A DNA stretch of 36,707 nt from an uncultured Halomicronema sp. (GTDB taxonomy: Bacteria > Cyanobacteriota > Cyanobacteriia > Phormidesmidales > Phormidesmidaceae), in the NCBI GenBank assembly GCA_937899725.1, contig CALCCA010000084.1, positions 1-36,707 of the forward strand, given 5' to 3'. Within the stretch, counting starts at the first letter, position 1. The number at the start of each line of letters is the position of its first letter. Positions 3,345 to 36,580 of the stretch are shown here, piece after piece. The notes below the pieces were generated by a model, which worked only from the letters and a program-made list of their open reading frames with translations, made no database searches and was not told where the DNA came from. Position numbers and translations under genes: made by a program.

Positions 3345-3448
3345 ATGTCCGGAGACGATGAATGGATAGATTCTTTAGTAAAACGAAAATTCTTGCGCTT
3401 AACAATGGGCGATCGCCGCACCTTCAACGCTTGAGACAATCGAATCAC

Positions 3449-30356: not shown

Positions 30357-31808
30357 TTAGGAAACCGAGGGTTGCTCTTCTGACGATTGAGCTGAGGCAA
30401 GTTCGACTTCCTCAGTCGGTGGGGCCGCGTCAGAATCTTTGAACACAATGCGTAAGAGCGGTGGCGCGACGAACGTGGTCAAAATCACCATGACGATAAT
30501 CGCTGCCTCCAGCGATTCTGAGAGCGCCCCACTGGCGGAACCCACACCGGCAAAAACCAAACCAACCTCACCCCGAGGAATCATGCCCACCCCAATGGCG
30601 AGCTTGTTGATGCCCTCTTGCCCAAAGACCGCAAAGCCGGTGACCACCTTACCGATGATCGCCACGACGACGAGGAATGAGGCAATGATTAAGCCCTCGC
30701 GGTTAGCCGGATCAAGCGGATTTAGAACGCTAACATCGGTGCGCGCGCCCACTGTCACAAAGAAAATCGGCACCAGCATGTCAGAAATCGGAATAATTTG
30801 CTCTTCCAGTTCTTTATGCTTGGGCGTTTCGGCCAAAATCAACCCAGCGGCAAAAGCCCCCAAAATCGCCTCTAGCTGAATGGTGGCGGCGATGTAAGAC
30901 AGCACAAAGGCAAAAACCAGCGAGCTAATGATCAGTTCGCCCCGCGTCTTCATTTGATTGACTAAGCCCACAAAGACTGGGCTGAGCAATCGCCCAATAA
31001 AGATCGCGCCGATCAAAAACGCGGCGGCGCTGACGATGAGAATGACGACGTTTTGAATCTCGATTTCCCCCGTTTTAGCGAGGCTGGCCACCACGGCTAG
31101 GACGATGATGCCGAGGACATCGTCTAATACTGCCGCCCCGATGATGATTTGCCCTTCGCGCGAGCTGAGCCTTTGAAGCTCGGCCAACACTTTGGCGGTG
31201 ATGCCAATACTGGTGGCGGTCAGAGCGGCGCCGGCAAAGACAGCGGGAATCGTCGCAATGTTGAACAGCACGATCAGGCCGGTCGTGCCCAAGGCAAAGG
31301 GCACCACTACCCCAATGATGGCGACTACGGCGGCCTGGGGGCCGACCCGAATCAGCTCCTTAAGATCAGATTCCAGGCCGATTTCAAAGAGCAGAATGAT
31401 GACGCCCAGCTCAGCCAGAATTGAGACGACTTCACTTTCTCCGCGAAAAACGGATAGCAGCCCCGCACCATCCATGTCGGTGGTGGTGGAGACTAACTGC
31501 ATGAGGACTGAGCCTGTTTCGCCCGCCCCTTCGGGAAAAACGATCAGATGCAGGGCGGAGACCCCGACGACAACGCCGCCGAGCAGCTCACCTAAAACCG
31601 GGGGTAAGTTGACCCGTGCACAGAGTTCGCCGCCAATTTTGGCAGCTAAGTAAACCGTGATCAGACTCAACAAGACGCCAGCTAAGACCAGCGGTTCGAT
31701 CTCGGCCTCTGAAGCTTCGGCCAAGATGGTCAGCCAACTGACATCTCCATAGAGAGGCATTGCCGTCAGGCTACCGATGGAACTAAGGCAGAAAAGTGCA
31801 TTCACCAT
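30357..31808 (-). CDS. CPA2 cation:proton antiporter (NhaS3/KefB type)
   Basis: A 483-residue polytopic membrane protein with about twelve helices. The ion-binding Asp pair lies in IIIGAAVLDDVLGIIVLAVV (D229-D230). The discontinuous helix TATSIGITAKVLAEL and the late motif GMIPRGEVGLVFAGVG are typical of CPA2 exchangers. There is no C-terminal TrkA-N domain, so it is closer to NhaS3/NapA-type Na+/H+ antiporters than to KefB; in Synechocystis NhaS3 is a thylakoid antiporter, and the likeness is from memory. The C terminus is acidic and Ser-rich. It stands alone. Confidence 0.88.
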   Translation of the reverse strand: MVNALFCLSSIGSLTAMPLYGDVSWLTILAEASEAEIEPLVLAGVLLSLITVYLAAKIGGELCARVNLPPVLGELLGGVVVGVSALHLIVFPEGAGETGSVLMQLVSTTTDMDGAGLLSVFRGESEVVSILAELGVIILLFEIGLESDLKELIRVGPQAAVVAIIGVVVPFALGTTGLIVLFNIATIPAVFAGAALTATSIGITAKVLAELQRLSSREGQIIIGAAVLDDVLGIIVLAVVASLAKTGEIEIQNVVILIVSAAAFLIGAIFIGRLLSPVFVGLVNQMKTRGELIISSLVFAFVLSYIAATIQLEAILGAFAAGLILAETPKHKELEEQIIPISDMLVPIFFVTVGARTDVSVLNPLDPANREGLIIASFLVVVAIIGKVVTGFAVFGQEGINKLAIGVGMIPRGEVGLVFAGVGSASGALSESLEAAIIVMVILTTFVAPPLLRIVFKDSDAAPPTEEVELASAQSSEEQPSVS

Positions 31809-34385: not shown

Positions 34386-34594
34386 CGAGGAGTGGAGAGT
34401 GGTGGGTAGAGGGTGGAGAGTTCGGAGTAGGAAATCAGGACTTTTTCCGCGTTCACCATTGAGCTGCGCGACGAAAGGGAGAAGAGAGAAGGTGAGGGAA
34501 AAGTGTACCTAAAGCTGAGAGCAGCATGGCAATCGAGACTGTACAGAATTTTGTGTAAGCGGTCTAAAATCCCGATAACTTAGGAGACCGCATC

Positions 34595-35845
34595 ATGCCT
34601 AGGAAAAAACCAGCACCGAATCGTGCCGATGAGCTACTGGACGAGCTGTTGGCAGACTGTCAAAGCCCAGAAGCGATTCTCGGTGAGTCCGGCTTACTCA
34701 AGCAGCTCACCAAACGATTAGTCGAACGGGCGTTAGCCGGGGAACTCAACCATCATCTCAACGAGACTGATGAGAGCGATCGCCGCAATAGCCGTAACGG
34801 TCACTCGTCCAAGACGGTGCAGTCAGAGCAGGGGGAATTGGAATTGGCCATTCCGCGAGATCGCCAAGGCACCTTTGAGCCTGTATTGGTGCCGAAGCAC
34901 CAAAGGCGATTGAGCGGTCTAGACGAGAAGATTTTGGCGCTCTATGCGCGCGGGATGAGTACCCGTGATATCTCATTGCAACTGGCGGAACTCTACGGCG
35001 CGCAAGTGTCCCCTGCCATCATTAGCGAGGTAACCGAGACGGTTCGTGAGGCCGTCAAAGCGTGGCAGTCTCGCCCCCTCGACGAGGTGTATCCCATTCT
35101 CCTCCGGAGACGCTGCGCGAACGTTTATCTCGATGCCCTCTACGTCAATATCAAAGTGGCCGGACGGGTGAGCAAGCGGGCCGTCTATGTCGTGCTGGGC
35201 ATCAACCGCGAGGGCCACAAAGAGCTGCTCGGTCTCTGGATTGGCGAGGCGGAAGCGGAAGGGGCCAAATTTTGGCTCAAAGTCCTCACTGACCTTAAAA
35301 ATCGAGGCCTGAAAGATATTCTGATTGCTTGCTGTGATGGACTTAAAGGCTTTCCCCAGGCCATTGAGGCCGTCTATCCCCAGACTCAAGTACAGCTTTG
35401 CATCGTCCATCTGATGCGCAACTCGCTCCGCTATGTGCCTTGGAAAGACGGCAAGGCGGTGGCTGCTGACCTCAAACCCATCTATCGAGCAGCTACCTTG
35501 GCGGAAGCGGAAACGGCGTTAGAGGACTTTGCCGCTAAGTGGGATGAGCACTATCCTGCGGTGAGCCAAATCTGGTTGCGTCACGGGGAAAACATCATCC
35601 CCAGCTTCGACTATCCGATGGAGATTCGTCGCGTCATCTACACCACCAACGCGATTGAATCAGTCAACCGCTCCTTGCGGAAGGTCGTTAAGACCAAGGC
35701 CGTGTTCCCTGATGAAGAGTCCGTTTTCAAGCTGATGTATCTGGCGATGAACAACATCTCAAAGCGGTGGAATCGTCCCATCAAAAACTGGAGAGCGGCC
35801 CTGTCACACTTTGCTATTCTGTTCCCACAACGCTTCAAACTTTGA
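34595..35845 (+). CDS. IS256-family (mutator type) transposase
   Basis: A 416-residue DDE transposase. The catalytic triad is D180 (VYLDALYV), D248 (CCDGLKGFP) and E355 (TTNAIESVNRS); the zinc-like C269/H272 pair (LCIVHLMRNS) is also present. The N-terminal part (1-160) is the DNA-binding region (ALYARGMSTRDISLQLAELYG). In related transposases the segment before D180 reads VYPI directly followed by V/F-L-D. Here eight residues, LLRRRCAN (169-176), are inserted in frame. The gene is otherwise intact. Activity is uncertain because the insertion abuts the first catalytic strand. ATG at 34595, with AGGAG upstream. Confidence 0.95.
   Translation: MPRKKPAPNRADELLDELLADCQSPEAILGESGLLKQLTKRLVERALAGELNHHLNETDESDRRNSRNGHSSKTVQSEQGELELAIPRDRQGTFEPVLVPKHQRRLSGLDEKILALYARGMSTRDISLQLAELYGAQVSPAIISEVTETVREAVKAWQSRPLDEVYPILLRRRCANVYLDALYVNIKVAGRVSKRAVYVVLGINREGHKELLGLWIGEAEAEGAKFWLKVLTDLKNRGLKDILIACCDGLKGFPQAIEAVYPQTQVQLCIVHLMRNSLRYVPWKDGKAVAADLKPIYRAATLAEAETALEDFAAKWDEHYPAVSQIWLRHGENIIPSFDYPMEIRRVIYTTNAIESVNRSLRKVVKTKAVFPDEESVFKLMYLAMNNISKRWNRPIKNWRAALSHFAILFPQRFKL
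35099..35122 (+). repeat. 24-nt in-frame small dispersed repeat inside the transposase gene
   Basis: The inserted bases contain CCGGAGACGCTGCGCGAAC, with GTT next. A related segment appears on the minus strand inside miniature element B (near 25898-25930), reading GGGAGACGC then GATGCGAACG. Short repeats of this kind (GGAGACGC..GCGAACG) are common in cyanobacteria and 21-27 nt small dispersed repeats have been described there. It adds eight codons without a frameshift. Confidence 0.65.
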
Positions 35846-35938
35846 ACAACAATCTGCTTACACAAAAATCAGAACACTCTCTGGCAATCTGGCTTTTTTC
35901 TTTGATTCTTCCACCCTTCTTCTTCGTCCTCTCGCAGC

Positions 35939-36413
35939 GTTTTAAACTATGTCCGAACATAACCCTTCGGTTGGGCTGCAACAGATACGGAACAACTCGA
36001 CGGAGACGTTGACCAATTTTCAACTATTCCGAATTTAACCCTTCGGTTGGGGACGGGAAAACCGTTGAAATGCGAATTTCCGAGAGGTTTTCAACTATTC
36101 CGAATTTAACCCTTCGGTTGGGCTGAGCCGACTCAATTGTTTGCGGTCAGGGGCAAAATGTTTTCAACTATTCCGAATTTAACCCTTCGGTTGGGGTCAG
36201 AAGGTCATTGCCGTCTCCACCATCTAGGGTGGTTTTCAACTATTCCGAATTTAACCCTTCGGTTGGGCAAAGCCAAGACCGCCAACCTGGTGCTCACCAG
36301 CTAGTTTTCAACTATTCCGAATTTAACCCTTCGGTTGGGTAGAGGCGCTCAGCTTAGGTGATGGAATTCAATCTCTGGTTTTCAACTATTCCGAATTTAA
36401 CCCTTCGGTTGGG
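35939..36413 (-). CRISPR. CRISPR array, seven repeats and six spacers
   Basis: Repeats are 36 nt, beginning GTTTTCAACTATTCCGAATT and ending AACCCTTCGGTTGGG on the plus strand. They lie at 35939-35975 (degenerate, 37 nt), 36016-36051 (first base changed), 36087-36122, 36160-36195, 36232-36267, 36304-36339 and 36378-36413. Spacers are 40, 35, 37, 36, 36 and 38 nt and unrelated to one another. On the minus strand each repeat ends GTTGAAAAC, like the 3' ends of many CRISPR repeats, and the degenerate repeat is at the left. Both points indicate transcription leftward with the leader on the right. Each repeat can form CCGAA/TTCGG and AACC/GGTT stems. No cas gene is in the window, so the subtype is undecided. 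Confidence 0.97.
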
Positions 36414-36580
36414 AGCACCACTCTAGAAGCCAAACCCCGTAAGGGTTTTGACCCCATCGATTCAAGCACCTCCATTTTATCATCAGCAAATTGTGGATTT
36501 TGGTCAAAATAGCCTATCCTTAACCCCTTGAACTTCCCGCTCGGCAAGGCATTCAAGCACCTCAACGAGATTTCAACCAT
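36414..36580 (-). promoter_or_regulatory. Probable CRISPR leader
   Basis: The sequence to the right of the last perfect repeat is AT-richer and non-coding. It contains an AAACCC/GGGTTT hairpin (36432-36448) close to the array and the 12-bp direct repeat TTCAAGCACCTC at 36461-36472 and 36552-36563. A minus-strand TTGACC (36502-36507) and TAAAAT (36474-36479) could be promoter boxes but are 22 bp apart, wider than usual. A 64-codon minus ORF here runs into the array and is not a gene. Beyond 36580 I see only TACCAGTTCT (36623-36632), identical to one end of the TA-flanked miniature elements. Confidence 0.6.

Follow-up and report, generated by a model that had tools for sequence, protein, structure and literature searches.

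To our knowledge, how repeats of 20-odd bases move is an open question. REPINs and REP repeats carry a GTAG- or CGTC-tagged hairpin and occur with a RAYT in the genome. They are described as being mobilised by RAYT transposases (PMC3116915), and Rickettsia palindromic elements (RPEs) are described as lying in frame within genes whose protein products are likely functional (PMC3733652). SDR5 is reported as a cyanobacterial small dispersed repeat that is inserted precisely between nucleotides 3 and 4 of HIP1 (PMC4390886, citing Elhai et al., 2008, Genome Res 18:1484). Here we describe what is very probably an SDR5-type repeat that inserted into an IS256-family transposase gene without changing its frame, left a copy that is probably impaired and was probably moved by a process other than the IS.

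The window, meaning the whole stretch of DNA that was analysed (36,707 nucleotides), is contig C84 of a 7.0 Mb genome whose relatives mark it as cyanobacterial. It holds a complete IS with both inverted repeats (85% complementary) and a perfect target duplication, and these ends and the duplication length agree with the IS256 family, for which 8-9 bp is typical (Table 1). The transposase matched the profile PF00872 (Transposase_mut) at E 6e-117, which places it in this family, with a Mutator-type DDE. D180, D248 and E355, which we take to be the catalytic residues, were invariant in 20 aligned sequences. Given the perfect 8-bp duplication, the element transposed once, before or after the insert arrived. 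A CRISPR-like array adjoins the IS at 35939-36420, with seven repeats of ~36 nt (GTTTTCAACTATTCCGAATTTAACCCTTCGGTTGGG) spaced at 71-76 nt; its first repeat is degenerate.

Table 1. Coordinates of the IS, its insert and the related features discussed in the text. Positions are those of the window unless a locus is named; a caret marks a point of insertion.
Feature	Location	Strand	Remarks
8-bp target duplication TGGCAATC, left copy	34527..34534	.	perfect duplication
Left terminal inverted repeat of IS	34535..34560	+	26 bp
IS256-family transposase	34595..35845	+	416 aa, Pfam Transposase_mut; insert = residues 169-176
70-bp tract identical between window copy and L004, around insert	35088..35157	+	sequence comparison
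24-bp SDR5-type repeat (by site, size and design) TCTCC-TCC-GGAGA-CGCTGCGCGAA	35098..35121	+	inserted at AT^CG
Right terminal inverted repeat of IS	35856..35881	-	26 bp
8-bp target duplication TGGCAATC, right copy	35882..35889	.	perfect duplication
Second module, 25 bp, two hairpins	L004:1830-1854		at GCG^ATCGC; breaks frame
CysS with in-frame repeat	L182, G252:C1:5226265-5228085	reverse orientation of repeat	empty in 12 congeners

The insert can equally be written as CTCCTCCGGAGACGCTGCGCGAAC (CTCC...GAAC) at 35099-35122 or as TCTCC...GAA at the position given in Table 1. It encodes LLRRRCAN, between YPI and VYLD180, just before the first catalytic Asp. We searched 87 loci. The same genome supplied two copies and the order 29 loci (63 genomes), and scanning the species genome collection with a peptide pattern gave the other 56. 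The insertion point is covered by 55 of the 87 (56 alignments), some of them being one genomic copy present in two collections. The eight residues were found in the window copy (L003) and in a second copy on contig C114 of the same genome (L004); 52 spanning loci lack them and one (L029) is unreadable at the point. The extra LLRRRCAN before VYLD to which the first-pass annotation had drawn attention is present, in two of the 55 loci only. Near relatives read YPI-(V/L/T)-YLD at the insertion point, and the closest relative, L011 from another genus of the family (86% identity outside the insert), reads YPI-T-YLD.

At the nucleotide level, empty sites were compared for 31 of the 55 loci; seven with <600 aligned bases were omitted (L096, L118, L032, L034, L035, L037 and L036), and 17 had no plus-strand match, some of them loci that match on the minus strand (for example L013, L014 and L018-L020). 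Natural empty sites read CCCAT^CGTTTACC (L074 and L121) and CCAAT^CGTTTATC (L023). Because these sites in relatives are exact, the gain is exactly 24 bp at AT^CG, and the 24 bases are an insertion into the transposase gene, without target duplication or deletion. Filled and empty sites thus agree with the earlier reading of a very small mobile repeat that entered the gene in frame beside a catalytic Asp. We rejected a MITE of this IS as a candidate, since no IS ends are present and the exact 24-bp gain was read directly at the insert and at the empty sites.

In the other five genomes of the genus, no listed fragment extends to the insertion point, which makes the genus uninformative. A search of the phylum with the IS matched 4 of 386 genomes at E 1e-30, own genome included. 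The plasmid search matched 1108 records, of which the 20 listed have ≤69.5% identity, and one record falls in the 80-90% band. Viral contigs had no match to the insert plus GTNTAY.

The repeat is laid out as a hairpin, TCTCC-NNN-GGAGA, with a variable 3-nt loop, followed by a conserved tail, and takes the form TCTCCNNNGGAGACGCTGCGCGAA. Many loci with nothing else in common carry it. In the order, 15 of 60 genomes have CTCCNNNGGAGACGCTGCGCGAAC, at 25 places in total; in the phylum, 14 of 386 genomes have it, one of them at 21 places. The reversed control gave 0 in both searches. Within its own genome, CTCCNNNGGAGACGCTGCGCGAAC is found in the two IS copies only; two other places have the 17-base core GGAGACGCTGCGCGAAC. 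Among 49 places examined as loci, which are a subset of all counted places (five from the genome with 21) and include some near copies of each other, we identified 14 kinds of loop. The predicted fold of the repeat DNA combines TCTCC-NNN-GGAGA with a small CGC-TGC-GCG hairpin and is not exceptional (z -1.05 versus shuffles). The core letters had no match in the literature text searched.

The genome-wide count that the first-pass annotation had proposed thus bore out a repeat, with the full pattern in both IS copies, dispersal in other genomes and controls at 0. The same annotation had likened the 24 bases to a motif within miniature "element B" close by, and this likeness was not confirmed. 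A 22-mer of the insert has a single match in the window at ≤3 mismatches, which is itself (0.01 expected). The window otherwise shows only words of 9-11 bases (an exact 10-base word at 3348, a 9-base word at 34463 and a 10-of-11 inverted match at 35930-35940) and a chance-level 14-mer with two mismatches at 30935 (0.43 expected by chance), and the element was not located.

The flanks of the dispersed copies indicate where the repeat inserts. Five of the 49 places fall outside the T...C form and were excluded, leaving 44 that fit TCTCC...GAA^C. AT^CG flanks occur at 16 of these (both IS copies counted) and are absent from 28, and exact HIP1 (GCGAT^CGC) flanks the repeat at 5. Others sit at T^C, several within CAAAATT repeats. 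At L045, L051-L053, L058, L060-L062 and L064 the repeat is surrounded by CAAAATT-like heptamer repeats and keeps their register, at T^C. As HIP1 is palindromic, the SDR5 site between nucleotides 3 and 4 equals GCGAT^CGC on the other strand, as found here, and the empty site GCGATCGC occurs in L169, an orthologue of an AMP-binding enzyme. The site in the window, CCCAT^CGTTT, is half of HIP1 (AT^CG) and not the full motif. The insert fits an SDR5-type repeat, a name that rests on insertion site, size and design.

We found the same repeat within several long reading frames of other genomes, two of which could be compared with orthologues. An AMP-binding enzyme (PF00501) was found in 14 of 80 genomes of the family at E 1e-120; three of the 14 orthologues carry the 24 bp in frame, with filled copies reading WTSSD-SPAETLRE-RILH and similar, and 11 are empty. 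The loop is TGC in L168, whose congener L169 holds an exact empty HIP1 (agcgat^cgcatt), and TGG in L170 and L171 of another genus, at the same HIP1 site. The difference between the loops suggests either that this site received the repeat twice or that the loop has changed. The cysteinyl-tRNA synthetase CysS (PF01406 and CysS_C) is present in 13 of 13 genomes of its genus, and one has the 24 bp in frame, in reverse orientation (Table 1); the near orthologues L184 and L185 read agcgatcgcgt at the site. As the AMP-binding enzyme and CysS show, genes can take up the repeat either way round and remain open. With a length of 24 nt it equals eight codons, and almost all of its frames are free of stops (60 to 64 of the 64 loops in each of the six frames), which allows entry into genes without breakage.

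To compare the transposase with and without the insert, the window protein and its relative L065 were modelled with AlphaFold2 from the same 20 sequences. In the insert-free L065 model, residues 167-182 form one strand that runs through D174 (mean pLDDT 83, pTM 0.67). In the model of the window protein (mean pLDDT 76, pTM 0.60), this strand is interrupted between 170 and 182, and D180 lies outside any strand. Residues 172-180 have pLDDT <50 and the block 171-180 a mean of 37, low confidence that is partly expected anyway at an insert absent from all aligned sequences. As modelled, the window copy is probably impaired by the split of the strand that carries the first Asp.

Outside the insert, L004 and the window copy have 85.5% identity; L004, the second IS copy, has the same insert, with the same loop and orientation. 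It is a pseudogene, broken by a one-base deletion and by a 25-bp module, TTGGCGCTAGCCTGTCCAGAGGACA. At ≤1 mismatch, 5 of 60 genomes have this module, at eight places in total (control 0); four of the five are in its own genus, and four of the eight places are at GCG^ATCGC. In its predicted fold (z -2.58), a small hairpin precedes TGTCC-AGA-GGACA, the mirror order of the 24-mer design.

How both copies came to hold the insert was examined in a tree and in the identity of their flanks. The tree left out 7 of 32 rows, namely L073, L065, L070, L098, L021 and L099 as duplicates, and L125; the pair L021/L099 is wholly absent from it. The window copy, L004 and L011 were grouped with support 100/99, and the order within the group is weak, with supporting sites for the three pairings of 88/77/86. 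A single entry in the common ancestor of the window and C114 copies, inherited by both while the insert-bearing element still transposed, is a serious candidate at somewhat below even chances. Insert, loop and orientation are identical in both, a clade of the window copy and L004 was not rejected (p-AU 0.32; L004 with L011, 0.26), and the window copy has its perfect target duplication. However, the best tree pairs the window copy with the insert-free L011, weakly (support 73/49). Moreover, the 24 insert bases and 45 scored flank sites show 0 differences, against 5.6 expected in the flanks from column-wise conservation (P 0.0015), and a run of such length across the point had P 0.0058 in simulation.

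The 70-bp identity, in copies that otherwise differ as much as these do, hints at short gene conversion on sequence grounds, and the pair has no longer run of identity than the one across the insertion point. A converted tract of ~70 bp between the diverged copies, or a repeat copied together with homologous flanks, may accordingly account for the pair, and we regard this as quite possible while placing it somewhat below an even chance. The tract endpoints were picked after the run was seen, and when any position in the gene is allowed, the simulations give P 0.08 for a run of this length. Another stretch, of 46 sites from 35729, also has 1 difference versus 7.1 expected, and L004 and L011 have a common 38-base run that starts beside the insertion point. 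These observations weigh against conversion. We are unsure whether the insertion should be called recent, as it is either older than the divergence of the two copies or moved between them by short conversion.

That the two IS copies each acquired the repeat independently, at the same AT^CG, is improbable: the recurrence hinted at by the AMP-binding gene (TGC in L168, empty in L169, TGG in L170/L171) speaks for it, but loop, orientation and flanks are all identical in the two copies, and two draws from the loop table (pair included) match only ~13% of the time. An ancestral loop common to this IS subgroup, the reading that the first-pass annotation had set as its own check, has next to no chance in the loci examined, given that 52 of 55 are without the eight residues, among them L011 from the same group as the two copies.

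In combination, we favour a 24-nt SDR5-type repeat that inserted precisely at AT^CG (half of HIP1, GCGAT^CGC) and so added eight codons. The repeat would be moved by some process with a preference for HIP1-like and other T^C sites, and not by this IS, and the second IS copy would have received the same insert by shared descent or short conversion. The suggestion that the repeat spreads by riding on the IS found no support: there are two copies only, of which one is broken, and 49 of 51 repeat loci are without IS trace, any IS or transposase similarity beyond the repeat being confined to the two IS copies. We also rejected the IS as the main route of spread, since its own genome has the two copies and one 64-base match, with no near-identical pair. 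The repeat in the transposase shows that the IS is a target, and none of our results show the IS acting as a vehicle.

A broader reading, which we consider rather unlikely, is that SDR5 may be a frame-neutral selfish 24-mer at often-coding HIP1 sites, one that gives unrelated proteins eight-residue segments and can be copied with short flanks between homologous genes. If it were true, the IS pair would be a natural record of a copying event, and transposase, CysS and AMP-binding enzymes would gain segments in this way. Both the insertion rule and frame neutrality can be tested on the exact filled and empty sites in orthologues from near relatives, and a frame-neutral 24-mer by which unrelated proteins gain eight residues merits a systematic count.

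Compared with known systems, this is a very small mobile repeat of a known kind, in a clean instance inside a transposase. The window element resembles the IS256 family in its conserved DDE residues, 26-bp inverted repeats and 8-bp target duplication, and differs from it by the eight residues added to the strand carrying the first Asp. RPEs are not known to be related to the 24-mer in sequence and are several times longer. As described, they resemble it in being small palindromic repeats within protein genes, but belong to another phylum than the hosts of the 24-mer. REPINs and REP repeats are, in the account drawn on here, short dispersed hairpin repeats probably moved in trans, as may be the case for the 24-mer, whereas REPINs are REP doublets. 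Precise insertion inside HIP1, as it has been reported for SDR5, is seen at part of the places of the 24-mer family; the window copy departs from that description in that its host gene is a transposase and its site only half of HIP1.
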